From NCBI GenBank assembly GCA_002730035.1, contig PBYU01000023.1, forward strand, positions 94,709 through 158,708: a DNA stretch of 64,000 bases. Reading direction: 5' to 3'. Source of the DNA: Gammaproteobacteria bacterium (lineage in GTDB: Bacteria > Pseudomonadota > Gammaproteobacteria > Pseudomonadales > Pseudohongiellaceae). Under the pieces are notes generated by a model. That model searched no databases, was not told where the DNA came from, and saw nothing but the letters and a program-made list of their open reading frames with translations. Positions 27,466 to 63,348 of the stretch are shown here, piece by piece. Numbering within the stretch: position 1 is the first letter of the stretch; each line of letters begins with the position of its first letter. The position numbers and the translations under genes were made by a program.

Positions 27466-29994
27466 ATGCGCTTGAGAAGCAGGAAATGGATTGGTATGGG
27501 CGGCACGTTCATCGTGGTGCTGGCGGCAGCTCTATTTGGGGGGCTGAATCCCCTCCAGGGGCTTGGTAATTCTGCTACAGCACAGCAAGCCTTCGACGCC
27601 AACGACATGCAGCAGGTGGTAAATTCCTATTGTCTGGCCTGTCATAGCGATGCGCTGGCGACCGCCGGCCTGTCGCTACAGCAAATCGACTTCGCGAATC
27701 CCGGTGCACACTCTGAAATCCTCGAAGCGGTGGTGAAGAAATTGCGCGCTCACATGATGCCTCCCTCGGGTATGCCAAGGCCGACTTTCGAAACCTACGG
27801 AATTATAACCGATTGGTTGGAAAGCGAACTCGATCAGGCCTGGGCAGCCGATCCAGATCCCGGTCGTGTCACTCCCCTGCATCGGATGAGCCGGTATGAA
27901 TACAACAATACGATTAATGATCTGTTAGGTCTTAATGTCGATGTCATGGACCTGTTACCCGGCGATCCAACCGCCGACGGGAGTTTCGATAACATCGCCG
28001 CGGCGCTGCCATTCTCAACCGCCCACATGGAGCGCTACATGTCCGTGGCCCGCCAGGTAACACGCCTGGCAACAGGATTGCCTCCGGCCGGTCCCAGCGT
28101 CACCACCTACGAGACCCCGGTTTATATGAGCCAGGACTGGCGCCAGACCGAAGACATGCCATTTGGGTCTCGTGGCGGCATCTCGGTGACCCATGATTTC
28201 CCCGTCGATGGCGAGTACCAGATTAACATCGAACTCGAAACCAATTATCAGGATTACGTTAAAGGGCTGGGCTGGGCTCAGCAACTCGATGTGCGTCTGG
28301 ACGGTCGCCTGCTGGAGCGTTTTAGCGTGGGCGGCGAAGCACCTGGAACGCCCACGCCATTAAGTTTCAGTGGCACCGGCGAGCCTGGCAGCATCGACTG
28401 GGAACAGTACATGCTTTACCAGGCAACGGAAGGCCTTCAGGTGCGTGTGCCGGTGCAGGCTGGACCTCACTCGGTAACAGTTTCCTACATCAGGCAGCAG
28501 GTCGAAGAAGAGGAAATTCCCCAACCCCGGCAGGGCGGACGACTGCCGGCAAACTCCGAAGCCTACCTTGCCTATCAGAAGGTGCACGCCGTAGAAATAG
28601 GCGGGCCTTACCTCGATGCCAGCGCGGCAGCGGGCTTTGGAGAATCACCCAGTCGCCAGTTAATCTTCTCCTGCTATCCCGAACGTCAGGCAGAAGAGAG
28701 TACCTGTGCTGCAGAAATTCTGACCCGCATGGCACGCCAGGCCTACCGACGCGGCGTAACTGACAACGATGCCGAACTGCTGCTGGAATTCTTCAACCAG
28801 GGTCGCGAGCAGGGCGCTAATTTCGACTCCGGTATTCAGTTCGCCCTGGAATTCATGCTCAGCGATCCGGATTTTCTGATCCGCAGTTACGATGCACCCC
28901 CACAGACCGCCGCTGCAGCTCTGTTTGAGCTCAGCGATCTTGAATTGGCTTCACGACTGGCTTTCTTCCTGTGGAGTAGCGCGCCGGATGAGACTCTGCT
29001 GGCGCTGGCAGAACAAGGCAGGCTCTCCGATCCGCGCATCTACCAGCAGCAGGTGCGGCGCATGCTGGCGGACCAGCGTGGTGTGAAGACGCTGGTCGAG
29101 GACTTTGCGGCCCAGTGGCTCAATTTGCGACGTCTCGATGAAGTGAATATCAATACGGTGCTGTTTCCGCAATACGATGTGAGTCTTATCGAGGCCTTCG
29201 GTCGCGAGACTGAACTGTTTATTGCCGAGACTCTGCAAACTAACGCCAGCATCCTTGAGCTGTTAGGCGCAGACTACACTTTTGTGAATGAACGGCTCGC
29301 CAGGCACTACGGCGTGGAAGGCATCTATGGCAGTCGTTTCCGTAAGGCGATGTTGCCGGATACAACACAACGCGGTGGGCTATTGGCACAGGGTGCCCTG
29401 CTAACCGTAACATCTTATCCTGGCCGGACATCACCAGTTTTGCGCGGCAAGTGGCTGTTGGACAATATGCTCGGCACGCCACCACCACCACCGCCACCGA
29501 ATGTACCGATTCTTCCGGGAGCGGGCGCGGGTGAAGCACCGGCTTCGATTCGTGAGCGGCTGGCACAACACCGGGCCGACCCGATCTGTTCATCCTGTCA
29601 TACCGTGATTGATCCAATTGGCTTCGCGTTGGAGAATTTCGACGTCATTGGTGCCTGGCGCGAGTTCGACGAAGTGGGCAATCCTGTGGATCCCAATGGC
29701 ACCTATCCGGGTGGCGTGGAGTTCGCCGGTTATGCCGACTTGCGAGACTGGATGCTGGATCGTCCCGATCGCTTTGCCCATACCCTGACAGAGAAGCTGA
29801 TGACTTACGCCCTCGGGCGGCGCGTCGAATACTATGATCAGCCCGTAGTCAGGCAGATCGTACGCGATGCAGCGCTTGAAGATTACAGCTGGTCGGCGAT
29901 CGTACTGGGAATCGTGGAGAGTCCGGCGTTCAAGATGAGTCGGGCTCCAGTTCAACTGGCCGAGAACAATAACAATGAAGCAGTCGATCCCTAG
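27466..29994 (+). CDS. DUF1592-family (DUF1587/1595/1592/1588/1585) exported cytochrome c-like protein
   Basis: Heme motif 'CLACHSDAL'; 'LHRMSRYEYNNTINDLLGL'; 'FLWSSAPDETLLALAEQGRL'; 'CSSCHTVIDPIGFALENFDVIGAWRE'; 'KLMTYALGRRVEYYD'. Confidence 0.9.
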   Translation: MRLRSRKWIGMGGTFIVVLAAALFGGLNPLQGLGNSATAQQAFDANDMQQVVNSYCLACHSDALATAGLSLQQIDFANPGAHSEILEAVVKKLRAHMMPPSGMPRPTFETYGIITDWLESELDQAWAADPDPGRVTPLHRMSRYEYNNTINDLLGLNVDVMDLLPGDPTADGSFDNIAAALPFSTAHMERYMSVARQVTRLATGLPPAGPSVTTYETPVYMSQDWRQTEDMPFGSRGGISVTHDFPVDGEYQINIELETNYQDYVKGLGWAQQLDVRLDGRLLERFSVGGEAPGTPTPLSFSGTGEPGSIDWEQYMLYQATEGLQVRVPVQAGPHSVTVSYIRQQVEEEEIPQPRQGGRLPANSEAYLAYQKVHAVEIGGPYLDASAAAGFGESPSRQLIFSCYPERQAEESTCAAEILTRMARQAYRRGVTDNDAELLLEFFNQGREQGANFDSGIQFALEFMLSDPDFLIRSYDAPPQTAAAALFELSDLELASRLAFFLWSSAPDETLLALAEQGRLSDPRIYQQQVRRMLADQRGVKTLVEDFAAQWLNLRRLDEVNINTVLFPQYDVSLIEAFGRETELFIAETLQTNASILELLGADYTFVNERLARHYGVEGIYGSRFRKAMLPDTTQRGGLLAQGALLTVTSYPGRTSPVLRGKWLLDNMLGTPPPPPPPNVPILPGAGAGEAPASIRERLAQHRADPICSSCHTVIDPIGFALENFDVIGAWREFDEVGNPVDPNGTYPGGVEFAGYADLRDWMLDRPDRFAHTLTEKLMTYALGRRVEYYDQPVVRQIVRDAALEDYSWSAIVLGIVESPAFKMSRAPVQLAENNNNEAVDP

Positions 29995-30096
29995 CTCGAC
30001 TGAGTGAGTCAAGGCGGTCTGGAATCAAGTTACTCTGACCCCGTTGATCTGCAACATTTACGAGAATAGCTGTCCCTGCTGAGAGGAAACGAAAAG

Positions 30097-31440
30097 ATGC
30101 GTAACGGCAAACAAGAGCTCAATAGAGTGGTAAACATCAGTACCGGCAAGTCGCTTTCCCGCCGCACGCTGCTCAAGGGTGCTGGTGCCGCGTTGGCGCT
30201 GCCAATGCTGGACGCCATGACGCCGGCATTTGCACAGTCTCCCGCCCCGATTCATCGTTTTCAAACCGTCTATATACCCAATGGCATGGCCATGGATTAC
30301 TGGTTGCCTACCAGCGTTGGACGGGATTACGAATTAACACCAGTCCTCAAGCCTCTTGCCAGATACCGTGACAAGATGATGGTGCTGTCGGGGCTCAACG
30401 CCAACTGGAATGTTGCCCACGCCGGTGCCGGTGGTTCATTTCTGACTGGTATCACCCGTGGTGGCAAAAACGAGACCGATATTCTGGCCGACATCTCTAT
30501 CGACCAGCTGTTGGCGAATAAACTGGGCAAGGAGACACAACTGTCTTCACTGGAACTGTCCATGGATGCACCAGCGCTGGCCGGTGCCTGCACAGTAAAC
30601 CTGAGCTGTGTGTATACCCACACACTCTCCTGGCGTGGTGCGACCGATCCGTTGCCAACAGAACACAATCCCAGGGCCTTTTTTGAACGCCTGTTCGGCG
30701 ATAGTGGCAGTACGGCACGGGATGCCCGGGAAGCCCGGCTGAGGCAACAGAGCAGCATCCTCGATGCGGTATTGCAAAGGTTGTCTACCCTGGAATCACA
30801 ACTCGGGGCGGAAGACCGGCACCTGGTCAATAGCTACACCGATTCGGTGCGCGATATCGAGCGCCGCATTCAGAAGGCCGAAGAACAGATCGATCTGGAC
30901 CTGCCGGAACTGGCCCAACCCGCCGGTGTTCCGCCAGTGTTCGAAGACCACATGGAAATTATGCAGGACCTGCAGGTATTAGCGCTGCAAACCGACTTGA
31001 CTCGAGTGATCACGTTCATGATGAGTAAAGAGCAGAGCGCGCGGCCCTATCCGCAGATCGGCGTGCCCGATGCCCACCATCCGCTGTCGCATCACAACAA
31101 TGTCACGGATCTGGTCGACCGGATGTCCAAGATCAATACCCACCACACCACACTGTTCTCCAACTACTTAGGCAAACTGGCGGCTATTCCGGAAGGCGAT
31201 GGCAGCTTGCTGGACAACATGACCATTCTGTACGGTGGTGGCTTGTCCAACAGCACGGTGCACTCGGGTACTAACCTGCCCATTCTGCTGGTCGGCGGTG
31301 GAGCTGGCTGGTTGAAGGGCGGTGAGCACAGACACTACCCGAACGAACCGACCATGGCCGATTTGCATCTGAGCCTGATGCAGAAGTTCGATCTTCATGT
31401 CGACAAACTCGGCGGTAGCAGCGGACCCATATCTATCTAG
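30097..31440 (+). CDS. DUF1552-family protein with Tat signal
   Basis: 'SRRTLLKGAGAALALPMLDAMTPAFA'; 'LSHHNNVTDLVDRMSKINTHHTTLFSNYLGKLAAIPEGDGSLLDNMTILYGGGLSNS'. Confidence 0.9.
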   Translation: MRNGKQELNRVVNISTGKSLSRRTLLKGAGAALALPMLDAMTPAFAQSPAPIHRFQTVYIPNGMAMDYWLPTSVGRDYELTPVLKPLARYRDKMMVLSGLNANWNVAHAGAGGSFLTGITRGGKNETDILADISIDQLLANKLGKETQLSSLELSMDAPALAGACTVNLSCVYTHTLSWRGATDPLPTEHNPRAFFERLFGDSGSTARDAREARLRQQSSILDAVLQRLSTLESQLGAEDRHLVNSYTDSVRDIERRIQKAEEQIDLDLPELAQPAGVPPVFEDHMEIMQDLQVLALQTDLTRVITFMMSKEQSARPYPQIGVPDAHHPLSHHNNVTDLVDRMSKINTHHTTLFSNYLGKLAAIPEGDGSLLDNMTILYGGGLSNSTVHSGTNLPILLVGGGAGWLKGGEHRHYPNEPTMADLHLSLMQKFDLHVDKLGGSSGPISI

Positions 31441-31496
31441 CCCACACCTTAAGGATCAGAGCAAAGACTCACTAGTCTCAGCTGGACATAGCATTC

Positions 31497-32894
31497 ATGA
31501 AGTCATCCAAGAAAAACCACTGTCTATTCATTCTGGCCCCAATTCTCTGCTTCCTGGCGGCACAGGCATTTGCCCAGAACATACCGGTACTAGTCAGCCT
31601 GGCCAAGGATGCCAAGTGGGTAGAGCTGGAAAACCTGCTCGAAGACGGATTGAATCCCAACGTTGTTTACGGAGACGGCAGTACGGCGCTGCACTGGTCC
31701 AGTTACCATGACAGCGTAGCTAGCACACGTTTATTACTCGACGCTGGCGCCGACGTGAACGCCGTAACCGACCTGGGTGTAACTGCTCTATGGCTGGCCG
31801 CTGAAAATGGCAATGCCACCCTGGTGGAGGCCTTATTGCAGGCCGGTGCAGATCCGACTATTCCCTTGCTCTCTGGCGAAACCATCGTCATGACGGCGGC
31901 CCAGAGTGGTAACGGCGACGTGGTCCGTGCCTTGCTCGCCGCCGGTGCCGATCCCAACGCTGCCGTTACCCGAGAACAGACCGCCCTGATGTGGGCTGCT
32001 TCGCGGGGACACTCCAGTGCCGTAGAAGCACTGTTAGAGTTCGGTGCCGACGTGGATGCCAGATCACTGGTGCGTACCCAATATGTGAAGTCAGAGAAAG
32101 AACAGGACAGTCATCCAGACTACAAGTATTGGATCGAGCAGGGCGGCAATACGGCCTTGATTTTTGCCGCGCGCTCCGGCGATTTGCGCTCAGCTCAATT
32201 ACTCGTCGAAGCGGGTAGCGACATAAATGGATTATCAGCCTTCGGGACCAGCCCGGCCATCATGGCAGTACACGGAGGCAATGCCGAGTTACTGGACTAT
32301 CTGTTACAGAATGGTGCCGACACCGAATCGAACAACAGCGGCCACACTGCCCTGCACGCCGCCGTACAACGTGGCGATCGTGATGCCGTAAACGTATTGT
32401 TGAGGCATGGTGCAAATGTGGAAGCGATTCTCGAGAAACCGACTCCAGTGCGACGCCAGGCTGCGGACTACAACTTTCACGATGCCTTGCTCGGATCTAC
32501 GCCCCTATGGCTTGCAGCAAGGTTTTCCGAACCCTTGATCATGGAAGTCTTGTTAGGGGTAGGTGCCGATCCGCTGACGGTTAACAACATGAGTTACCCG
32601 GCACAGCGCCTCGGTGAGCCTTATATTGCGGACGAAGGTGCGATAAATCTGGTCATGGCCGCAATGGGCATGGGTCATGCACGCCTGCGCATCAGCTGGG
32701 GCACTCCGGAACGCCGCGCCGGCCAACTGCAGGACCGAGAGTCCCTGGCACTCGATTCGGTAATGCTTGCCGTGCAAGCCGGGGCCGACATCAACGCAAC
32801 AAATGCCGAGGGACAGACTGCGCTGGCCTTTGCCAAACAACGCCGCTATGCATCGATTGTATCTTTCCTCGAGGCAGCGGGTGCTACTGAGTAG
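31497..32894 (+). CDS. Exported ankyrin-repeat protein
   Basis: Signal peptide; multiple 'GxTALxxAxxxGxxxxVxxLLxxGADxN' repeats. Confidence 0.92.
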   Translation: MKSSKKNHCLFILAPILCFLAAQAFAQNIPVLVSLAKDAKWVELENLLEDGLNPNVVYGDGSTALHWSSYHDSVASTRLLLDAGADVNAVTDLGVTALWLAAENGNATLVEALLQAGADPTIPLLSGETIVMTAAQSGNGDVVRALLAAGADPNAAVTREQTALMWAASRGHSSAVEALLEFGADVDARSLVRTQYVKSEKEQDSHPDYKYWIEQGGNTALIFAARSGDLRSAQLLVEAGSDINGLSAFGTSPAIMAVHGGNAELLDYLLQNGADTESNNSGHTALHAAVQRGDRDAVNVLLRHGANVEAILEKPTPVRRQAADYNFHDALLGSTPLWLAARFSEPLIMEVLLGVGADPLTVNNMSYPAQRLGEPYIADEGAINLVMAAMGMGHARLRISWGTPERRAGQLQDRESLALDSVMLAVQAGADINATNAEGQTALAFAKQRRYASIVSFLEAAGATE

Positions 32895-32999
32895 ATATTC
32901 GTGGACAGATTTATTTTCTTCCAGGAATTCGGTTCTCTGTAAACCTCATCTCGAGTCACTGAAAAATGGATCTATCCCTAAGTCAACAGGGAATAAAAA

Positions 33000-34544
33000 A
33001 TGATGAAGCTGCGTTATAAGATTTCTCTGTTAGTATTTCCCGCTATTCTGATAATCCCAGTGACTGCCTTCTCGCAGGCTGAAGCGTACTCCGGTGTTAC
33101 CGCTTCTATGCGCATGTTCCAGGACAACTGTGCGGTGTGCCATGGTGAGAACCTGGAAGGAGCGGCACAGGGAACACCACTGCGAGGTGTGCTTCGCCAT
33201 GGCGAGTCCATGGGTGATCTGATTGCCAGTATCAGTAGAGGGTATGAGACCTCGGGAATGCCTACCTGGCGGGATATCTTCAGTCCGACACAAATTCGCA
33301 GCATCGCGATGTATATTCTGGAGACTCGCGCCAACGTGGACTATGTGACTTCAAATTTCGAAATGCCGCTCTCGGTCCCAGAAGATGAAATCGAGAGTGA
33401 GCTACATAGTTTCCGGTTGGAGACACTCGTCAGTGACCTGAATCCACTGCCGTTCTCTATCGAACCATTACCCGATGGCCGCCTGTTACTGACAGAGAAG
33501 ACCCAGGGTGTCAGCATCATCAGCCTGGATGGGGAACAGTCGGAGCTGATTCGTGGTATTCCGAAGGCCTATGATGATATCTACCGACTGGATACACGCC
33601 TGGATATAGAAAGAGGCATGGGGTGGATGTTTGATATTGTGCTGCATCCGAATTACGCAGAGAACAGTTGGGTATACCTCTACTTTAGTGATCGCTGTGA
33701 GGATTGCAATGAGCTGAGTAAGGAAAGAGATCGCCCGGTGTCCATGAACAAACTGGTGCGCGGCAGGATTGAAGGAGGGCAGTGGCAGGACGAGGAAATT
33801 ATCTGGCAAGCTCAAGCGGAACATTACTCACTTGCAGGCGACGTGGGCGCCGGCGGCCGTGTTGCCTTCGACAATTTCGGCCGTGTCTATTTCAGCGTAG
33901 GGATGAAAGGCGGGGGCAATGCCCGTGGCATACAAGATCTGTCCACACCCTGGGGCAAGATTCACCGGGTCAATGATGACGGCAGCATTCCGCAGGACAA
34001 TCCCTTCGCCGGTCGCGACGATGTCTATAGAAGCATCTTTACTTTCGGCCATCGCAGCCCCCAGGGGCTGGAGTTTGATACTCAGACTGGCCAGTTATGG
34101 GGAACAGAACATGGGCCTCGGGGTGGGGACGAGGTCAATCTCCTGCTAGCGGGTCGCAACTATGGTTGGCCGCTCTATTCCCTGGGCATGGACTACGATG
34201 GTACGCCGGTGGAGTACGGCAAGGACCTGGGTATAGCATTCGAGTTGTCCGATATCGAACAGCCAGTGGTGGATTTGACACCTTCTCCTGCCGTATCCAG
34301 CTTTATTATTTCAGACAGTATAAATTTTCCCGAATGGGAGGGAGATTTCCTGGTCGGTTCGCTAAAGGCACGCAGCCTGTTTCGTTTCGTTATCGAGAAT
34401 AATGAACTGGTGCATCGAGAGACTCTAATAGAGGGCTTCGGCCGCATTCGTGATATCGAAGCAGGATTCGACGGTGATATTTACCTATTGCTGGAGCATA
34501 GCTCAGGCGGCAAAATTGTCAGGCTGGTCCCTGTGGAAAAATAG
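33000..34544 (+). CDS. Cytochrome c plus PQQ-dependent sugar dehydrogenase-like protein
   Basis: Signal peptide; heme motif 'CAVCHGENLEGAAQGTPLRG'; beta-propeller motifs 'GWMFDIVLHPNYAENSWVYLYFSD', 'GHRSPQGLEFDTQTGQLWGTEHGPRGGDEVNLL'. Confidence 0.88.
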   Translation: MMKLRYKISLLVFPAILIIPVTAFSQAEAYSGVTASMRMFQDNCAVCHGENLEGAAQGTPLRGVLRHGESMGDLIASISRGYETSGMPTWRDIFSPTQIRSIAMYILETRANVDYVTSNFEMPLSVPEDEIESELHSFRLETLVSDLNPLPFSIEPLPDGRLLLTEKTQGVSIISLDGEQSELIRGIPKAYDDIYRLDTRLDIERGMGWMFDIVLHPNYAENSWVYLYFSDRCEDCNELSKERDRPVSMNKLVRGRIEGGQWQDEEIIWQAQAEHYSLAGDVGAGGRVAFDNFGRVYFSVGMKGGGNARGIQDLSTPWGKIHRVNDDGSIPQDNPFAGRDDVYRSIFTFGHRSPQGLEFDTQTGQLWGTEHGPRGGDEVNLLLAGRNYGWPLYSLGMDYDGTPVEYGKDLGIAFELSDIEQPVVDLTPSPAVSSFIISDSINFPEWEGDFLVGSLKARSLFRFVIENNELVHRETLIEGFGRIRDIEAGFDGDIYLLLEHSSGGKIVRLVPVEK

Positions 34545-34600
34545 ATCTATTCAAAATTGTTTCTTTTTACGTAGATTGACAGCGGTTTCAGGAGTAGGCA

Positions 34601-34732
34601 ATGGTTGAACAAAAGCGAAATGAAAAGGGTCGGAGAGGCGGCGATCGTAGGACTAATAAGCAGGCATCTGAAGAGTACCAGGAGAAGGATCGCAGAATAT
34701 CCAATCGCAGAGAGGGACAGCGAAGGAAATAG
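34601..34732 (+). CDS. 43-aa highly basic small protein (not in supplied ORF list)
   Basis: ATG with upstream CAGGAG; MVEQKRNEKGRRGGDRRTNKQASEEYQEKDRRISNRREGQRRK*. Confidence 0.45.
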   Translation: MVEQKRNEKGRRGGDRRTNKQASEEYQEKDRRISNRREGQRRK

Positions 34733-34799
34733 GTATTGGTGCCTTACTCTCTACAGGCACATAATCAAGGTGGCAGGGAACAATAGGTGGTGATAAAGC

Positions 34800-35537
34800 G
34801 TGGAAAATGATTCAGCAATCCAGCAAACTAGGCACTGGGTCCATCGGCACAGCTACAATGCCCGAATCTCTCATTGGATCAATGTCCTCTGCTTTGTCTA
34901 CCTGTTGCTGAGTGGCCTCATGATGTTCCTGCAATTTCCCGAGCTTTATTGGGGGAAGGTTGGTTTCCAAGGCTATGATGCCGTATTTAAACTGTCTGAT
35001 TGGGGACTCTCCTGGGAAGAAGCGGATGCGCTGGGCAACCGGCGTTGGGGTAGAAATTATCACTATCTGTTCGCCTGGGTATTTGTCATTAATGGACTGA
35101 TCTTTTTGGGATGGAATCTTTGGCAGAAGCGTTTCTACAGCAAAATGCTGCCGAGCCGTGAAGAACTATCCCGTAAGCATCTCATAGCAGATATGAAGAA
35201 TCATATACAGTTTCGTGCGCCAACAGGTACAGCAACGCGGCAGTACAGTGTGCTTCAGAAAATTTCTTACTTGATAGTGTTGTTTGTGTTGTTCCCTTTC
35301 ATGATTGTCAGCGGCCTCGCACAAACGCCAGCTTTTACTGCTATCTCGCCCGAGCTAATCGACCTGTTCGGGGGGCGACAAACAGCTCGGACCCTGCATG
35401 TCGTCTGTACCGTGTTGTTGTTGCTATTTGTGGTTATTCACCTGATCGAAGTATTTATTGCCGGCGTTGTAAATCAAGTCCGCTCGATGATCACTGGCAA
35501 GTACGCAGTACTAACCCAGAGTGCTGAGGGAGATTAA
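34800..35537 (+). CDS. Cytochrome b (b561-like) membrane subunit
   Basis: GTG start; 'HSYNARISHWINVLCFVYLLLSGLMM', 'RTLHVVCTVLLLLFVVIHLIEVFIAG' with paired TM histidines. Confidence 0.82.
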   Translation: MENDSAIQQTRHWVHRHSYNARISHWINVLCFVYLLLSGLMMFLQFPELYWGKVGFQGYDAVFKLSDWGLSWEEADALGNRRWGRNYHYLFAWVFVINGLIFLGWNLWQKRFYSKMLPSREELSRKHLIADMKNHIQFRAPTGTATRQYSVLQKISYLIVLFVLFPFMIVSGLAQTPAFTAISPELIDLFGGRQTARTLHVVCTVLLLLFVVIHLIEVFIAGVVNQVRSMITGKYAVLTQSAEGD

Positions 35538-35540
35538 GAA

Positions 35541-36305
35541 ATGAAAAAACCCAATCCTGAAACGTTGTCACGCCGTAAGTTCATTACCCGAGCCGGGGCA
35601 GTAGGCGGATTGCTGCTTACCGGATGCGATACCGATCTGTATAGGCCACCGGTGATAAGAGATGGTCTGATGGGGGTGGCTGACGTTCTGACCATGGCCT
35701 CGCAGCGCCTGCTGCTTTCCGGGCAACCACTGGTGCAGGAGCACGATGTTAGCGAGATCACCAAAAACTTCCCGGTGTGGAATCAGAGCAACCCTGAGGA
35801 CGAGGAATACCAGCGGCTGCGACAGGGAAATTATACGGATTGGCAGCTGCCAATCAGCGGCATGGTAAACCGACCGACGTCTCTTTCGCTGGAAGACCTG
35901 AAGCGTCTACCCCGGCGCACCCAGATCACGTCCCATATCTGCGAACAGGGCTGGTCTGCCATTGCCCAATGGACTGGGGCACCCCTGTTGAATGTGCTCG
36001 AAGCTGCTGGCGGCGTAACGCCCGAGGCGCGTTACGTGCTCATTGATGCCTACGGTGGTTGGTACGAAGGCTATGACATGTTCGACGCGGTTCACCCGCA
36101 AACCATACTTGCTTATGGGATGAATGGAAAAGAGTTACCTCTGGGCCATGGTGCCCCGGCCCGCTTGAGAGTGGAGCGCCATTGTGGCTATAAACAGATC
36201 AAATTTGTGAAGTCCATACGGGTGGTTTCAAACATGGATGGTTTTGGTAGAGGTACCGGCGGGCTTAATTCTGATTTTGGTTTTCACTGGTATGCGGGAG
36301 CGTAG
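35541..36305 (+). CDS. YedY/sulfite oxidase-like molybdopterin-dependent oxidoreductase, Tat-exported
   Basis: 'SRRKFITRAGAVGGLLLTGC'; 'LPRRTQITSHICEQGWSAIAQWTGAPL'; 'GYKQIKFVKSIRVV'. Confidence 0.85.
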   Translation: MKKPNPETLSRRKFITRAGAVGGLLLTGCDTDLYRPPVIRDGLMGVADVLTMASQRLLLSGQPLVQEHDVSEITKNFPVWNQSNPEDEEYQRLRQGNYTDWQLPISGMVNRPTSLSLEDLKRLPRRTQITSHICEQGWSAIAQWTGAPLLNVLEAAGGVTPEARYVLIDAYGGWYEGYDMFDAVHPQTILAYGMNGKELPLGHGAPARLRVERHCGYKQIKFVKSIRVVSNMDGFGRGTGGLNSDFGFHWYAGA

Positions 36306-36390
36306 CTAGAAACTAGAGCCTCGCTGCAAAGTGGTTAATCGCCAGTAGCGCACCTCAGAATGTATCCAGATCGCCGGTAAGGTATTGAAG

Positions 36391-38262
36391 ATGGATCGAA
36401 GAAAGTTCATACGAAAATCTTCCCTGGCTTCCTTCTGGCTGTGGCTAACTGGAAATTCGATTGCCGCCGAAGCCGATAAGCCCAATATTCTCTGGATCAC
36501 CAGCGAAGATCACGGACCCCATTTGGGTTGTTATGGTGATCTGTATGCCGATACGCCCAACCTGGACCTGCTGGCCGAGCAGGGTATGTTGTTCAAACGT
36601 GCTTGGTCTACCGCGCCGGTCTGTGCAGCGGCACGCACCGCGTTGATCACCGGTGTCTATCCTCCGAGCCTAGGTGCGGAACACATGCGCTCACTGGTGG
36701 CGATGCCGCCCTTCATGAAGATGTATCCGCAGTATCTGCGCGAAGCCGGCTATTACTGCAGCAACAACAGCAAAGAAGATTACAACCTCATCAAACCTGA
36801 TGGAGTGTGGGATGACTCGAGCTCCCAGGCACACTGGTTGAACCGTCCTCAGGACCAGCCGTTCTTTTCAGTGTTCAACTACACGATGACCCACGAGAGT
36901 CAGATTCGTGCATCCGACGCGAATACTACCCATGATCCGGCGGGTGTGCGGGTGCCGGCCTACCAACCGGATACACCGGAAGTCAGGTCCAACTGGGCGC
37001 AATATTACGATCGCATTACCCAACTCGACGCAGTCGTTGCAGATCGCCTGAACGAACTGAATGAAGCCGGTCTGGCGGAAGACACGATCGTGTTTTTCTA
37101 TTCGGATCACGGCTCCGGCATCCCCCGCAGTAAGCGCTGGCCTTACAACTCCGGCCTGCATGTACCGATGATCCTCTTTTTCCCGGATAAATGGCGACAC
37201 CTCGCACCGGATGAGTATGCAGCGGGAGTGAAGTCCGACCGGCTGGTGGATTTCATGGACCTGGCACCCACAGTGCTGAGCATGGTCGGCATCGAGCCGC
37301 CGACGCACATGCAGGGCCGGGCCTTCGCCGGCAATTTCCAACAGGCGCCCAAGCCTTACATGATGGCGTTTCGGGGACGCATGGACGAACGCTACGACTT
37401 GGCACGTGCAGTAACCGATGGGCGCTACCTTTATATGCGCCAGTACATGCCACATCGTATCTATGGTCAGTATCTGGAGTACATGTTCCAGACCCAGGCC
37501 ACCCAGGTGTGGAAACGTATGTACGATGAAGGCCGCCTGAATGAGGCGCAGCGCAGGTTTTGGGAAACCAAGCCGCCCGAGGAGTTGTATGATCTCGAAA
37601 TCGATAACGACGAGATCGACAACCTGGTTGATTCACCGGCTCATCAATCAAAACTGGCCGAGCTGCGGCAGGTGCAACAGGCCTGGATTCGGGAAGCGAA
37701 GGATATCGGTTTCTTACCAGAAAATGAGATTCGCAATCGCTCCGTGGATTCGACACCCTATGAAACCGCCCGCGACCCGAATCGCTACCCACTCGAGCGC
37801 ATCGCCTCGATGGCGGACAGGGCATCCTCTCTCGCACCGGAGGCAACGCCCGAATTGGTCGCCGCCCTGCAAGATCCCGACAGCGCCGTGCGCTACTGGG
37901 CGGCGTTGGGTCTGCTCATGCGCAGGGAAGCGGGAATAAATGCCGGTAGAGATCAACTACGGGATGCATTGACCGACCCGGCTCCGGCCGTGCGGGTCGC
38001 GGCTGCGGAGGCGCTGGGTGTGTACGGCGCTGAACCCGAACTGGAGGCTGCCCTTTCTACATTTGCTGAACTGATCGATGTGGAAGGCAACGAAATCTTC
38101 ATACCGATGATGGCGCTTTCGGCGCTGGATGAGATGCATGAAAAAGCCAGTCCGTTGCGTAGACAGATTGAGGCGATCGACGTAAGCAGTGTTACACGAA
38201 CTCGTCCAGAAGGCCGAGAAATAGAAAGATTGAAAGCAAAGCTGTTAGGTGATCTTGGTTAA
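36391..38262 (+). CDS. Sulfatase with C-terminal HEAT-like repeats
   Basis: 'NILWITSEDHGPHLGCYGD'; catalytic CxAxR 'APVCAAARTALITGVYP'; 'ALQDPDSAVRYWAALGLLMR...LTDPAPAVRVAAAEALG'. Confidence 0.92.
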   Translation: MDRRKFIRKSSLASFWLWLTGNSIAAEADKPNILWITSEDHGPHLGCYGDLYADTPNLDLLAEQGMLFKRAWSTAPVCAAARTALITGVYPPSLGAEHMRSLVAMPPFMKMYPQYLREAGYYCSNNSKEDYNLIKPDGVWDDSSSQAHWLNRPQDQPFFSVFNYTMTHESQIRASDANTTHDPAGVRVPAYQPDTPEVRSNWAQYYDRITQLDAVVADRLNELNEAGLAEDTIVFFYSDHGSGIPRSKRWPYNSGLHVPMILFFPDKWRHLAPDEYAAGVKSDRLVDFMDLAPTVLSMVGIEPPTHMQGRAFAGNFQQAPKPYMMAFRGRMDERYDLARAVTDGRYLYMRQYMPHRIYGQYLEYMFQTQATQVWKRMYDEGRLNEAQRRFWETKPPEELYDLEIDNDEIDNLVDSPAHQSKLAELRQVQQAWIREAKDIGFLPENEIRNRSVDSTPYETARDPNRYPLERIASMADRASSLAPEATPELVAALQDPDSAVRYWAALGLLMRREAGINAGRDQLRDALTDPAPAVRVAAAEALGVYGAEPELEAALSTFAELIDVEGNEIFIPMMALSALDEMHEKASPLRRQIEAIDVSSVTRTRPEGREIERLKAKLLGDLG

Positions 38263-39050: not shown

Positions 39051-40571
39051 ATGAGAAGAACAATACCTGGCCTGGCGTTTTTTCTAGTATGTGTACTGTA
39101 TTCCTCTACAGCAGTAACACAGATAATCGAGTGGGAAGTTGGGCTTACTTCGAATCGAGCTCTTATCCGAGCGCGCGGAGTCAGCGCTGCAGTGCAAGCT
39201 GCGCCCACGATTCTGTATCTGGCAGGATTGACGGGTAATACGGGCTTTTCGGATGAACTGGAGTCGATCCTCGAAAACTATGCACGAACTGAGGAGCGTT
39301 CCAGACCAGTCAAGCTGATAATCATCCCAGTTGCGAACCCGGATGGCGAAGAACTAATCTTCCCGCCGCTGGGCAGGGCTTATGCTGAGAACCCGGTCTC
39401 CCATGCACTATGGCGATGGATAGGCACCCATGCACCCGACCTGGTGATTGTGGCTGGGCAGGATGCCGGTGGATTTGTCGATGCACTACAGGGTGAAGCC
39501 GTGGCGAGCTTCGGCTCGATTCCAGTGCAGGTATTCTCTACACGAACGACAGGCCTGAACTTCCTGCTCGCTTTGCAACAAGCGGAAGCATCGGAAGCGA
39601 GTCTGGAGTTGGCTCGCCGGCTAGTTCGAACTCCTGCTGAACTCGCAGATCAACTGGCGCAAAGCTACGGCTATAATTTTTCCACCCCTGCCTACGTGCC
39701 GGGAATGAGTTTGATCGGGCGCATGCGATTGGGCCAGATGCAGGAAATAGAAATCCAACTGCAACCCTACCTTACGGGATCAGCCATTGAGGTCTACAAT
39801 GCCTCAGTGATGGCCGGTCAGTTGGTATTTGCCGAGTTCGCCGAGCGAACCGGCAATGCGGCGGCCCGACAGTTGACCATCAACGCCGCCGAGTTGGCCT
39901 TCGATGAACAGGGCAATCCGCGGGCAGCCATGCCCATGCACGCCGAGATGAGTGATTCATTCTTCATGGTTACGCCGTTGTTGGTAAAAGCGGGTAAGTT
40001 GACAGCTGAGAGCAAGTATTTCGATATGGCCGCCCGGCACGTGAACTACATGCGCGAGATGCTGGTACAGGAAAACGGTTTGTATCGTCATTCCCCGGAA
40101 GCCGATGTCGCCTGGAGTCGGGGCAATGGTTTTCCGGCGTTGGGCATGGCGCTGAGTCTCAGTGATTTTCCTGAAACCCACCCGGCCTATGGCGCATTGA
40201 TGAGTATCTTCATTCATCATCTCGAATCTCTGCTGCCCTATCAGGATGTCGATGGCATGTGGCATGAAGTGATCGATTATCCGGGCTCTTTTGCCGAGAT
40301 TACCTCCACCGCAATGATTGGGATTGCCATCAAGCGCGGCCTCGATCGCAACTGGCTGCCAGCTGCTACTTATCAGCCGGTGCTCGACAAGATTTGGCGC
40401 GCCGTGAGCATCCGCACCAGTCTCGGCGGCGAATTCATCAATGCCTGTACTTCTACCGGCAAAATGCTCTCACTGGATGCTTACCTCGATCGACCGGCGA
40501 TACTCGGCCGAGACGACCGGGCAGGGGGCGTGGTCATGCTGTTTGCTAATGAAATGGCGGGCAATAGGTGA
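39051..40571 (+). CDS. GH88/GH105-like glycoside hydrolase with unusual N-terminal M14-like region
   Basis: C-terminal half 'YFDMAARHVNYMREMLVQENGLYRHSPEADVAWSRGNGFPALGMALSL'; N-terminal 'VKLIIIPVANPDGEE'. Confidence 0.75.
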   Translation: MRRTIPGLAFFLVCVLYSSTAVTQIIEWEVGLTSNRALIRARGVSAAVQAAPTILYLAGLTGNTGFSDELESILENYARTEERSRPVKLIIIPVANPDGEELIFPPLGRAYAENPVSHALWRWIGTHAPDLVIVAGQDAGGFVDALQGEAVASFGSIPVQVFSTRTTGLNFLLALQQAEASEASLELARRLVRTPAELADQLAQSYGYNFSTPAYVPGMSLIGRMRLGQMQEIEIQLQPYLTGSAIEVYNASVMAGQLVFAEFAERTGNAAARQLTINAAELAFDEQGNPRAAMPMHAEMSDSFFMVTPLLVKAGKLTAESKYFDMAARHVNYMREMLVQENGLYRHSPEADVAWSRGNGFPALGMALSLSDFPETHPAYGALMSIFIHHLESLLPYQDVDGMWHEVIDYPGSFAEITSTAMIGIAIKRGLDRNWLPAATYQPVLDKIWRAVSIRTSLGGEFINACTSTGKMLSLDAYLDRPAILGRDDRAGGVVMLFANEMAGNR

Positions 40572-40708: not shown

Positions 40709-41992
40709 ATGAAAAGAATACTGCCACGTATCGCAACTGGAGTACTGCTTGTCGCCTTGCCGGTGTTCTTGGCGTTTCCTGCCCCCACCGTGTTTCCCAC
40801 GGGCACTACGATCTACTACCCCGATCAGGCCCACGGCAGCTACATCCTCGTCTCTGACCACAACAACGTCAGCAACCACCCGCAAGCTTCGGTGCGCGCG
40901 CAAGGCGTTGTGCCCGACGATGTGCGCCTGATCGACATGAATGGCAACGTCGTGCATGCCTGGCGGGTAGAACCCTATTTCAATAAACGCAGCCGATTAC
41001 TGCCAAATGGCAACCTGGTTACCGTCGGTAATAATCGCCGCATTGTGGAGTACGACTGGGACGGCAATATCGTCTGGACTCACGAAGGTATCGGCTCGGT
41101 CAACGACATGCGCGTGCTGGCTAACGGCAATAGGTTGCTGGTTGCACATGACCCGATGCCTGCGGAGTTCCAGCAACAAGTCATAGATCAGGCTGCCACA
41201 CAGTGGTGGGGTGCGCGCAATCGGGGCAGCGAAGAGGTGCAGCAAAGCGCAGATCTGTACGAGGTCAATGTCGAGGGCGAGGTCGTGTGGGAATGGCACG
41301 CCTATAACCACCTCGATCTGAACCGCTGGTCGCCGGCCACACCTGAGGGTGACTGGTTGCATGTTAACTCCATGGCACCGATTCCAGAGAATAAGTGGTA
41401 TGACGCAGGAGACGAACGCTTCAAGCCAGGCAATATTCTCCTCAATGCCAGAAATATCAACACCATGTACATAATTGACAAGAACAGCAAACAGGTCGTA
41501 TGGGAGGGAACCCATAATTATAACGGCGGTATGTCTCACTCCCACGAACCGGAGATGATAGAAAAAGGCAGGCCGGGAGCCGGCAACATCATTCTATTTG
41601 ATAACGGGCTCTTCACCACGAATCGAGTCCATACCGGGCAGACCTATATCGTGGAATTGAATCCGGTAACTTGGGACGTGGTGTGGGTTTACGAAACCGA
41701 AGGTTATGCAAATATCAAGTTCTTCAGTAAGACCATGGGCAGCCAGAAGCGTCTTCCCAATGGCAACACGTTTATCGCCGAAGACAATACCGGTCGTTTG
41801 TTTCAGGTTAAACCGGACAAATCCATAGTCTGGGAATATGTCAATCGGGGAGGAACTACCCGACCCTCGGTTGTACCCTATGATTTCACGCCACAGTTGC
41901 GTGCCATGGACAGGCCGCAGGAGCTAGCGGTGACGCCGCCGAACAATCTCGAGTGGCAGATTCAACCAGACATTTACAGAGACGCGAATTAG
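40709..41992 (+). CDS. Arylsulfotransferase (ASST)-family protein
   Basis: 'VRLIDMNGNVVHAWRVEPYFNKRSRLLPNGNLVTVGNNRRIVEYDWDGNIVWTHEG' and 'MSHSHEPEMI...' typical of ASST/ArylS propeller proteins. Confidence 0.8.
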   Translation: MKRILPRIATGVLLVALPVFLAFPAPTVFPTGTTIYYPDQAHGSYILVSDHNNVSNHPQASVRAQGVVPDDVRLIDMNGNVVHAWRVEPYFNKRSRLLPNGNLVTVGNNRRIVEYDWDGNIVWTHEGIGSVNDMRVLANGNRLLVAHDPMPAEFQQQVIDQAATQWWGARNRGSEEVQQSADLYEVNVEGEVVWEWHAYNHLDLNRWSPATPEGDWLHVNSMAPIPENKWYDAGDERFKPGNILLNARNINTMYIIDKNSKQVVWEGTHNYNGGMSHSHEPEMIEKGRPGAGNIILFDNGLFTTNRVHTGQTYIVELNPVTWDVVWVYETEGYANIKFFSKTMGSQKRLPNGNTFIAEDNTGRLFQVKPDKSIVWEYVNRGGTTRPSVVPYDFTPQLRAMDRPQELAVTPPNNLEWQIQPDIYRDAN

Positions 41993-43253: not shown

Positions 43254-44786
43254 TTAAAGTATTCCCTGGTTGCGATGATCGCCTTGTTTGGGACGTACCA
43301 CATTCTTAAGCGGGATGTTCATCCCACCGGTTGATTCCAGCCATTGGTAGACATCGTTGGCAAAGCCTTCGATGCGTTGCTGATGCTCTGGCGAATCGAT
43401 CAGGTTCTGCGTCTCATTCGGGTCGTTCTGCAGATCATAAAATTCGTTGGTGTCCCAGATGCCATGGTAACGAATATACTTATAGCGATCCGTGCGTACA
43501 CCGAACATGGTCGGCGTCTGCGGATAGTCCATCTCCCAGTAGTATTCGTAGAAGATCCGATCACGCCATGCCGTGTCCTGCCGGTTAAGCAGTGGTGTTA
43601 TCGACATGCCTTGCATATGAGCCGGCATCTGTAGACCGGCGGCTTCCAGTATGGTGGGTGCGATATCGATATTCTGTACCAGCGCTCCGATCGGCGCGCC
43701 ACCGCGGAGGCGTTCCGGCCATCGCATCAGTAATGGTACTTTTGCCGATTCTTCGTAGAAGTGGCGCTTATCGATGAGGCCATGTTCGCCAAAGGAAAAG
43801 CCGTTATCCCCCATGTAGATAACCAGGGTGTCTTGTGCCATGTCATTTGCATCCAGATAATCCAGCACCGTACCGACACTCTCATCGACACCCATCAGCG
43901 TTTCGGTGTAACGATAGAAGAACTCCTCGAAGTCGATGCTGCCATGATACATGTAGTCCACTCCGTGCCAGGATTCGCGCTGCTGCTTGACCCAGTCCGG
44001 TGTGCGGTTTTCGCCATAGTACTCGCGTCCACGTAAGGGTTCGCCATCGGCACCGGAAGAGGGTTGCGGTGGTGTGCCATACAGCGGTACTTCGTAGCTC
44101 GGTGGGTAGATGATTTCTTGCTCGTCATACTGGCCCTGATGGCGTTCGGCCGGTTCGAACCGGGCGTGCACTGCCTTGTGTGACAGGTACATGAAGAAGG
44201 GCTGTTCTTCGTCTCGAGTATCCAGCCAGTTGATGGCGTGCTCGGTAAGCAGGTCCGAGATGTAGGTGGTTTCATCGTAACTGACCTGCTCACCATTGAT
44301 GTTCAGTGTTGGACTGTAATAAACACCCTGGTCGCGAAAACTTTCCCAGTGATCGAAGCCGGGTTGCGGTGCGTCGCTGAGAGCGCCCATGTGCCACTTG
44401 CCAAAGAACCCGGTCTGGTAACCGGCGCTCTGCAGGTACTGGGGAAAATAGGTGAGATTGCCGGGGTCCGGTGCGGCATTATCGATCACCGTGTGGCTAT
44501 GGGAATACAGACCAGTAAGAATTGAAGCACGGCTCGGTGAGCACAGTGCAGTGGTCACGTAGGCATTAGGAAAGTAAGCGCCTTCCCGGGCCAGACGATC
44601 CAGGTTCGGCGTCTCCAGCCAGGGCACCTTGCCGGTGAATCCCATGAAATCGAAACGATGGTCGTCGCTGAGTATGAAGATAACGTTCTTCGGTGTCGAA
44701 TCTGGCAGCGCTACGAGCTGCAGCGGATTCTCTTCAGCTGTACAGGCAGTAAGGAAGGTTATAAACAGAAACAGCGACTTATGCAT
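43254..44786 (-). CDS. Sulfatase lipoprotein
   Basis: Lipobox 'FLTACTAEE'; catalytic 'TTALCSPSRASILTGLYSHSH'; 'MGDNGFSFGEHGLIDKRHFYEES'. Confidence 0.94.
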   Translation of the reverse strand: MHKSLFLFITFLTACTAEENPLQLVALPDSTPKNVIFILSDDHRFDFMGFTGKVPWLETPNLDRLAREGAYFPNAYVTTALCSPSRASILTGLYSHSHTVIDNAAPDPGNLTYFPQYLQSAGYQTGFFGKWHMGALSDAPQPGFDHWESFRDQGVYYSPTLNINGEQVSYDETTYISDLLTEHAINWLDTRDEEQPFFMYLSHKAVHARFEPAERHQGQYDEQEIIYPPSYEVPLYGTPPQPSSGADGEPLRGREYYGENRTPDWVKQQRESWHGVDYMYHGSIDFEEFFYRYTETLMGVDESVGTVLDYLDANDMAQDTLVIYMGDNGFSFGEHGLIDKRHFYEESAKVPLLMRWPERLRGGAPIGALVQNIDIAPTILEAAGLQMPAHMQGMSITPLLNRQDTAWRDRIFYEYYWEMDYPQTPTMFGVRTDRYKYIRYHGIWDTNEFYDLQNDPNETQNLIDSPEHQQRIEGFANDVYQWLESTGGMNIPLKNVVRPKQGDHRNQGIL

Positions 44787-45621: not shown

Positions 45622-47502
45622 ATGCGATCGTTTATAGGGATCAATACTCTAGCTTTTCTCCTTAGTACTCTCGTGGCGTGTTCAGATCAATCGACTTCCG
45701 AACCGGCTGCTCCCGAACCTGTTGCTGCTCCCGCTACGGCAGCAGCAAGTGTCGAATACAACACTGAGCGCAACGCCTATTTCGGCGATCTGCACGTGCA
45801 CACCATGTATTCCTTCGATGCCTTTATCTTCGGTACCACGTCGTCACCGGACGATGCCTACGAGTTTGCCAAGGGCGGCACGATTACCCATCCGGCCGGC
45901 TTCGACATGACGCTGGATGTGCCGCTGGATTTTTACGGTGTAAGTGATCATGCGTTTTATCTCGGTGTATTGAGGGAGATGGCGAATCCTGATTCGGAGA
46001 TTTCTAAGCACGAGGCGGCCGCTGGAATGACTACGCTGGCTGGCGCTGCTGATAGAAGAGCAAAATTTCAGAGCATTCTGGGGGTTCTGCGTTCGCCTCG
46101 GGGACGCGAGCTCAATGATCCCGGCATAGTCAAATCTGCCTGGGACGACATCGTCGCCGCCGCCAATCGCCACAATGACCCGGGAAATTTCACCACCTTT
46201 ATCGCTTATGAATACACTACAACTGCTAGGGATGGTGGGAACCTGCACCGCAATGTCATTTTTCAGGGCGATACGGGATCGGAATTACCCTTCTCCAGGC
46301 TCGATTCGAGCAATCCGGAAGACCTGTGGGACTGGATGGATAGCAATCGCGCGGCAGGCATCGAGAGCCTGGCGATTCCGCACAACTCCAATGGCTCCAA
46401 TGGCAATATGTTCATGCTGGTGGATTCGGCCGGACAACCGCTAGACGATGCCTATGCCAACCAGCGCATGCGTAACGAACCGCTGGTTGAGATCACTCAG
46501 GTCAAGGGTACCTCCGATACCCATCCGGCCCTGTCACCGAACGACGAGTGGGCCGATTTCGAGATCATGCCGTATATGGTGGCATCGACTCTGTCCAGCC
46601 AGCCAGTGGGTAGTTATGTGCGGGAGGCGCTTATCAATGGTCTGCAGATGCAGGCGGAGCAGGGATTTAATCCCTACAAGCTCGGTTTCATCGGCTCCAG
46701 CGATACCCACAATGCCACCTATGCCGGCGACGAAGACGATTACTGGTCCAAGGTGGGCGTGGTGGATGGCACGCCTGAGCGGCGCAGCTCTATACCCTTG
46801 TCCGAACCGCTTCCGAATGGTGATCTCTATGCCGACGTCTATTACGATACGTGGGGCGCGGCCGGATTGGCCGGTGTGTGGGCCGAAGAAAACACCCGCG
46901 AGGCGATTTACGATGCCTTCCGCCGCAAGGAAACCTTCGGCACCTCCGGACCACGCATGAAGGTGCGCTTCTTCGCCGGCCATGACCTGCCGGCTGTCGA
47001 TGATAGCGACATGCTAGCCGCGGCTTATGCCTCGGGAGTAACCATGGGCAGTGACCTGATCGCCGCTGCCAATCAGCAACCATCCTTTATCGTATGGGCG
47101 GCGAAAGATCCCAACAGTGCGCCGCTGCAACGGGTACAGATCGTTAAGGGCTGGGTGGAGAACGGCGAAACCCGGGAGCAAGTGTACGACGTGGCTTGTG
47201 CCGATGGGGGATTGGTCGATCCGGCCACTAACCGCTGTCCAGAAAATGGGGCGACCGTAAATCTCAGTGATTGCAGCATCAGCGCAGGATTAGGAGCCAC
47301 CGAACTGAAGGCAGGCTGGCGGGACCCGCAGTACGATCCCTCTCAGCATGCCATGTACTATGTGCGCGCATTGGAGAATCCCAGCTGCCGCTGGTCCACC
47401 TGGGATGCGATTCGAGCCGGTGTTGCGCCGCGTCAGGACCTGGCGGCTACCATCCAGGAACGCGTGTGGTCTTCTCCTATCTGGATCACTCCTACCCAGT
47501 GA
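45622..47502 (+). CDS. DUF3604-domain lipoprotein (PHP-like)
   Basis: Lipobox 'STLVACSDQS'; 'NAYFGDLHVHTMYSFDAF'; 'GFIGSSDTHNATYAG'. Confidence 0.9.
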   Translation: MRSFIGINTLAFLLSTLVACSDQSTSEPAAPEPVAAPATAAASVEYNTERNAYFGDLHVHTMYSFDAFIFGTTSSPDDAYEFAKGGTITHPAGFDMTLDVPLDFYGVSDHAFYLGVLREMANPDSEISKHEAAAGMTTLAGAADRRAKFQSILGVLRSPRGRELNDPGIVKSAWDDIVAAANRHNDPGNFTTFIAYEYTTTARDGGNLHRNVIFQGDTGSELPFSRLDSSNPEDLWDWMDSNRAAGIESLAIPHNSNGSNGNMFMLVDSAGQPLDDAYANQRMRNEPLVEITQVKGTSDTHPALSPNDEWADFEIMPYMVASTLSSQPVGSYVREALINGLQMQAEQGFNPYKLGFIGSSDTHNATYAGDEDDYWSKVGVVDGTPERRSSIPLSEPLPNGDLYADVYYDTWGAAGLAGVWAEENTREAIYDAFRRKETFGTSGPRMKVRFFAGHDLPAVDDSDMLAAAYASGVTMGSDLIAAANQQPSFIVWAAKDPNSAPLQRVQIVKGWVENGETREQVYDVACADGGLVDPATNRCPENGATVNLSDCSISAGLGATELKAGWRDPQYDPSQHAMYYVRALENPSCRWSTWDAIRAGVAPRQDLAATIQERVWSSPIWITPTQ

Positions 47503-63010: not shown

Positions 63011-63348
63011 GATTGTTCCTTCTCGAATAAGTCGGCGAACAATTAGAGTTATACGTGAAATTAGAAGGTAGGTAAAACTCGATCTGGACTGGTTTTTAAG
63101 GTCAGGTGAGGAACCAAATCCGACAATTTGGAGCAAAAGAAATCTGCCGATGTCTGGCTTGACTACCCTTATTCACGGAGTTTTCTTTTGGAACGGGCGG
63201 GGCAAACCGGGAATCTAGCACAAATCAAGACCGCCTCGGTCTGCAATCTTCAATTTTGGCTGCAATTACTTGACAAGCTGTTCCAATTCAGAGACTTGAG
63301 TAATAGACTTAAAACAATCGAAAGGTGGATATGGAGGGGGTCTTCATA

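Follow-up and report, generated by a model that had tools for sequence, protein, structure and literature searches.

A 2017 description of genes that combine PSCyt and PSD domains called them intriguing, their functions being wholly uncharacterised. In Planctomycetes and Verrucomicrobia, the PSCyt3 genes were already known to have a conserved neighbour, itself of uncharacterised function, and a role in carbohydrate use was suspected (PMC5615132). The closest precedents are the following. Growth on insoluble cellulose requires Cbp2D of Cellvibrio japonicus, a protein with DUF1587 and c-type cytochrome domains; the X183 heme domain of Cbp2D can reduce an LPMO, albeit slowly (PMC8981238, PMC12542752). 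In Teredinibacter turnerae, X183 domains taken from one protein failed to drive an LPMO (PMC10916295). In outline, a fungal enzyme, Coprinopsis cinerea CcPDH (AA8-AA12-CBM1), is also similar to relatives described below, uniting a PQQ sugar-dehydrogenase fold, a cytochrome and a CBM in one chain (PMC5960967). Our searches found no published biochemistry for DUF1552 or for the type of DUF1592 protein considered here.

The locus analysed here lies at 27466-36305 of a 64-kb stretch of DNA, referred to throughout as the window. The seven same-strand open reading frames that the earlier note had listed for this region are all present, on the plus strand, and the domain names it gave are mostly right by Pfam. 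The first three genes (27466-32894) encode a DUF1592-type di-heme protein, a DUF1552 protein and an ankyrin-repeat protein, and this trio is a conserved unit across several phyla. The DUF1592/DUF1552 pair was already known, and unexplained; what is added here is the ankyrin partner and a series of fusions. The trio shares with the Planctomycete and Verrucomicrobia system its PSCyt and PSD domain families and the conserved neighbour gene, but it includes an ankyrin gene, of which the main text of PMC5615132 makes no mention. No paper linking ankyrin with PSCyt genes was found in the literature searched, in which subscription journals were thinly covered.

Conservation and components of the trio

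To collect loci for comparison, a DUF1552 alignment was run against named prokaryote contigs and the 80 best matches were taken, a sample that is biased toward the query because it holds best matches only. They belong to Gammaproteobacteria (including Pseudohongiella), Acidobacteriota, Gemmatimonadota and Acidimicrobiia, in contrast to the Planctomycete and Verrucomicrobia hosts of PMC5615132. Where enough flanking sequence was available among these 80, an ankyrin gene lies within 2.5 kb of DUF1592-DUF1552 in 55 of 58 loci. It is most often downstream on the same strand (37 loci); in a smaller group of 12 it is upstream and divergent. Twenty further loci from the genus and family, picked by DUF1552 score, include 17 with the ankyrin gene, and one of the three exceptions is cut by a contig end. 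As controls, 258 kb around loci of the cytochrome b/YedY-like genes discussed below, most of them from the same genus, gave no ankyrin match, and the whole window contains a single one. Ankyrin was likewise not matched in the ten loci read around CBM-fused forms of DUF1592 from other families of the order; the ankyrin partner is therefore not universal.

Gene arrangement and sequence divergence both bind the three genes together. The DUF1592 and DUF1552 genes overlap by exactly 4 bp in 24 of 77 pairs. In the same-genus orthologous loci that were read, the order DUF1592-DUF1552-ankyrin is kept on one strand, while the content downstream varies. For the three proteins, the matrices of pairwise distance are correlated across 95 loci (Mantel r 0.95, 0.93 and 0.91; permutation maxima 0.13 or less), in a set that contains many within-genus paralogues, including deep ones, and to whose r values shared species history contributes. 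The suggestion that DUF1592 and DUF1552 are exported partners lacking an established function is borne out. Two of the loci, with trios typical of environmental bacteria, lie in records titled as Klebsiella pneumoniae MAGs; these titles are probably wrong. In five genomes, DUF1552 or PSCyt3 genes reach 14-16 or more copies each. Such copy numbers suggest many specialised versions of the proteins, and could also have a meaning other than carbohydrate use.

The DUF1592 protein (27466-29994) comprises PSCyt1, PSD3, PSD5, PSD4, PSCyt3 and PSD2; PSD3, PSD5, PSD4, PSCyt3 and PSD2 score above the curated Pfam cut-offs. Its two heme sites, CLACH at residues 56-60 in PSCyt1 and CSSCH at residues 708-712 in PSCyt3, are both conserved in alignments. 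The AF2 model (pLDDT 85.7) places an inserted beta-sandwich at about residues 210-382, between PSD3 and PSD5, that appears to be CBM35/CBM6-like: Foldseek matches it to CBM35, CBM6 and CBM36 modules, with probabilities mostly near 1 and a weak best E value of 0.002. Sequence and profile searches found no solved homologue, and structure search no close solved relative. Cbp2D and the Teredinibacter proteins TERTU_2913 and TERTU_3803 (X183-X132) resemble the DUF1592 protein in having a heme domain, a C-terminal CxxCH domain and a carbohydrate context (PMC8981238, PMC10916295), and Cbp2D is stated to contain DUF1587, that is, PSD3 (PMC8981238). We infer that X132 is equivalent to PSD4/PSCyt3. What ties the DUF1592 protein to Cbp2D is the Pfam DUF1587 assignment given in PMC8981238, together with the fused relatives in the same order; Cbp2D differs in carrying fused CBMs, where the DUF1592 protein of the window has only the inserted CBM35-like sandwich.

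The DUF1552 protein (30097-31440) is a member of the HXXSHH family (Pfam, 303 bits), with motif residues H328, S331, H332 and H333 and a twin-arginine-like N-terminus. No solved homologue was found by sequence and profile searches. In its AF2 model (pLDDT 82.7), the fold appears to be that of the sulfatase/alkaline-phosphatase superfamily; the best Foldseek matches are to sulfatases and other members of this superfamily, and are remote (E 1.8e-5, TM 0.41 or less). Eight histidines, H108, H285, H328, H332, H333, H350, H389 and H411, are invariant or nearly so, as are C165 and C171, and the histidines could provide a common metal site. The segment HAxxxxxFLTG resembles CxPSRxxxLTG of the superfamily, with H108 standing before FLTG much as the modified Cys stands before LTG in sulfatases. 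Thus an invariant His would occupy the apparent nucleophile position, which in the superfamily is held by Cys, Ser or Thr. This placement is a suggestion only, because the LTG region, although it was the best segment in profile-profile alignment with four sulfatases, did not reach significance. The HXXSHH motif and the lack of a significant profile match further distinguish DUF1552 from the superfamily.

The third member (31497-32894) has ankyrin repeats behind a Sec-like signal, by Pfam. Its assignment to the trio depends on adjacency and on the co-divergence described above. The ankyrin protein Cj1386 hands heme on to a catalase, KatA (PMC11442138), and since ankyrin proteins can serve heme enzymes in this way, an assembly role is possible for that of the trio.

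Carbohydrate connections and proposed function

Other families of the same order contain DUF1592-module proteins of 1043-2157 residues that are fused to CBM26, CBM2, CBM10, CBM49 or chitinase-N/fn3 domains. In four of the five large fused proteins scanned, the chain also includes a glucose/sorbosone dehydrogenase (GSDH) domain, which precedes the cytochrome c and the PSD/PSCyt domains. The architectures include CBM26-GSDH-cyt c-PSD3-PSD5-PSD4-PSCyt3-PSD2, CBM2-GSDH-cyt c-PSD and chitinase-N/fn3-cyt c-PSD, and the fused GSDH domains retain the catalytic His, in the motifs DHKGG and NHNGG. A DUF1552 homologue adjoins the DUF1592-module gene in all ten loci read from those families. At four loci, a DUF1552 gene stands beside a gene whose single chain of 1300-2157 residues unites the PSD/PSCyt module with CBMs, GSDH and cytochrome c. 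It is these fused relatives that CcPDH resembles; the latter is fungal, has an AA8 cytochrome and lacks both PSD/PSCyt domains and DUF1552 (PMC5960967). The GSDH encoded in the window also differs from CcPDH, in that it has no catalytic His.

Genes for carbohydrate enzymes occur near some trios as well. The second gene after the trio is GH88 at four other loci, and four genomes have a cassette behind the trio in which GH88 is accompanied by a creatininase-like gene and a gene for a Tat protein. Beyond the seven genes, the window continues with four more of interest, at 36385-38262, 39051-40571, 40709-41992 and 43254-44786: two belong to the sulfatase family, one of these having HEAT repeats, one encodes an unsaturated uronyl hydrolase of the GH88 type, and one is arylsulfotransferase-like. 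In view of the GH88 genes that follow the trio elsewhere, the GH88 of the window may be a remnant of an older context of the trio. Two DUF3604 proteins are also encoded in the window, at 45622-47502 and 60413-63136, one near full length (754 bits) and the other partial (71 bits). A role as electron donor to LPMO can be set aside for this genome, since no match to LPMO_10 was found in the assembly, which is 93% complete.

The reading that we prefer, and to which we assign about an even chance, is that the trio forms an exported, carbohydrate-directed redox complex and that the cytochrome b/YedY-like pair is separate from it. The trio probably handles electrons during carbohydrate breakdown. Its substrates would derive from oligo- or polysaccharides, and its site of action would be the periplasm or the cell surface. 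The DUF1592 protein would serve as a c-type carrier whose two hemes convey the electrons and whose own inserted sandwich is carbohydrate-binding-like. DUF1552, Tat-exported, rich in His and probably metal-binding, would supply a metal site, and the chemistry would be performed by DUF1552, by an accessory dehydrogenase or by both. The ankyrin protein may be a scaffold or assembly partner that holds the complex together. What the data show are the domains, their conservation, the synteny, the fold-level matches and the fusions; complex formation, metal binding, the substrate and the direction of electron flow are points that we infer.

A bolder version of this proposal makes DUF1552 a new redox metalloenzyme, built on a sulfatase/phosphatase fold in which the usual nucleophile has given way to a His-rich site, that oxidises carbohydrates and delivers electrons to the DUF1592 hemes, the ankyrin protein being an exported scaffold. 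We consider it a long shot. If it were true, the trio would be a multi-paralogue bacterial counterpart of the cellobiose or pyranose dehydrogenases.

The trio might instead be hydrolytic, with DUF1552 a sulfatase- or phosphatase-like glycan esterase that the DUF1592 protein positions on the glycan and with hemes that are structural or sensory. The fold matches of DUF1552, almost all to sulfatases and phosphatases, argue for such an esterase, as do the GH88 and creatininase-like genes near some trios and the sulfatases and GH88 near that of the window. An apparently invariant His at the nucleophile position speaks against it, as far as a placement taken from a non-significant alignment allows, and electron transfer is favoured by the two conserved heme sites and by the relatives fused to both a dehydrogenase and cytochrome c. 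On this evidence hydrolysis seems unlikely, though it is the alternative to be taken most seriously. There is a slimmer chance that the trio is a device for oxidative stress or heme handling, in which a peroxidase-like di-heme DUF1592 protein has its heme loaded or protected by the ankyrin protein. The transfer of heme from Cj1386 to KatA offers a parallel, but Pfam finds no cytochrome c peroxidase/MauG domain in the DUF1592 protein, its module is fused elsewhere to carbohydrate-binding modules and to a sugar-dehydrogenase fold, and there are many paralogues per genome.

The neighbouring redox genes

The fourth gene (33000-34544) encodes a cytochrome c with one CxxCH, joined to a GSDH domain (PF07995, 292 bits) that also has PDB matches. 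The earlier note had called it a PQQ dehydrogenase. The fold is indeed that of PQQ sugar dehydrogenases, but a residue check shows that the catalytic His is missing, and activity as a PQQ dehydrogenase is doubtful. This residue, the His of the HxGG motif, we take to be the catalytic base, as in soluble quinoprotein glucose dehydrogenase. It is absent from all 23 cytochrome c-fused members read, that of the window among them, and is kept in all seven stand-alone GSDH paralogues read. With this His gone, no obvious dehydrogenase is encoded at the locus. A search of the 93%-complete genome did not find pqqC, which the same model detected in 30 of 147 relatives; PQQ can be imported. Orthologues of the cytochrome c-GSDH gene are mostly unlinked in other genomes, so that it is best treated as a separate neighbour. 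The exceptions are G066, a sister species; G044, where a paralogous trio stands about 5 kb from one copy; and G025, in which one copy lies about 3 kb from the cytochrome b pair. The commonest further neighbour of the trio is PQQ-ADH, present at 21 of the 80 best-match loci and mildly enriched close by, a redox connection that counts for the preferred reading.

Between this gene and the pair, the open reading frame call includes a small basic frame of 43 residues (34601-34732), which is an unproven gene. Its frame is intact in the sister G066 only (58% identity), and a conserved function was rejected on that ground. A scan for promoters and terminators was uninformative, the signals being at or below chance level.

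The last two genes encode a cytochrome b561-type membrane protein (34800-35537; PF01292), with near-invariant H25, H88, H135, H200 and H214, and a YedY-like molybdopterin oxidoreductase (35541-36305; Oxidored_molyb, PF00174). The latter is a predicted Tat-exported lipoprotein, with an RR motif and a lipobox-like LLTGC, and its invariant Cys134 is a likely molybdenum ligand. MsrPQ (YedYZ) is likewise an exported molybdopterin protein beside a b-type membrane cytochrome. In the window, however, the cytochrome is of the b561/Ni_hydr_CYTB type, not the ferric-reductase-fold type of MsrQ, and the catalytic subunit scores far below the curated MsrP cut-off (79 versus 207 bits); an assignment as MsrPQ was rejected on both grounds.

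The two genes are conserved as a pair in about 24 genomes. Among the 24 genomes of the genus with a full-length orthologue of the cytochrome b, the pair adjoins the trio in two, the present one and G066, which has the same gene order as the window and proteins about 90% identical. In the single contig of G025, pair and trio lie 3.6 Mb apart. In five genomes the pair stands beside rnr-rlmB-rpsF-rplI genes, neighbours that were named by eye from protein starts. The refuting condition that the earlier note had set thus has a divided outcome. No linkage of the pair with the trio block is seen beyond these two genomes, but at the genome level the two do co-occur within the genus, the trio being present in 23 of 24 genomes with the cytochrome b versus 19 of 60 without it (p 6e-8, a statistic that ignores phylogeny and on which little weight is placed here).

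The preferred reading, taken as a whole and at the even chance given above, includes two further parts: the pair would be a second, independent membrane-anchored molybdoenzyme module, and the stretch 27466-36305 a lineage-specific juxtaposition of separate modules. That the seven genes together make up a single secreted oxidation pathway, with electrons passing through the cytochromes c and b to or from the molybdoenzyme, is very improbable: the shared strand and short gaps, the same order in G066 and the co-occurrence just described are in its favour, but in the other relatives examined the pair and the cytochrome c-GSDH gene are located elsewhere, the pair beside rnr-rlmB-rpsF in several, and the GSDH lacks its catalytic His. 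The seven-gene unit was accordingly rejected on synteny. What survives of the redox reading is the tie, through the fused relatives, between the DUF1592 heme module and a sugar-dehydrogenase fold with cytochrome c; the single seven-gene chain does not.

Implications

The locus is a caution against treating adjacent redox genes as a single pathway. Pairs of DUF1592 and DUF1552 are abundant in environmental bacteria, with counts that reach 16 or more in a single genome. The ankyrin partner, the predicted DUF1552 fold with its apparently altered site and the fusions together provide a testable idea about how bacteria may oxidise glycans.
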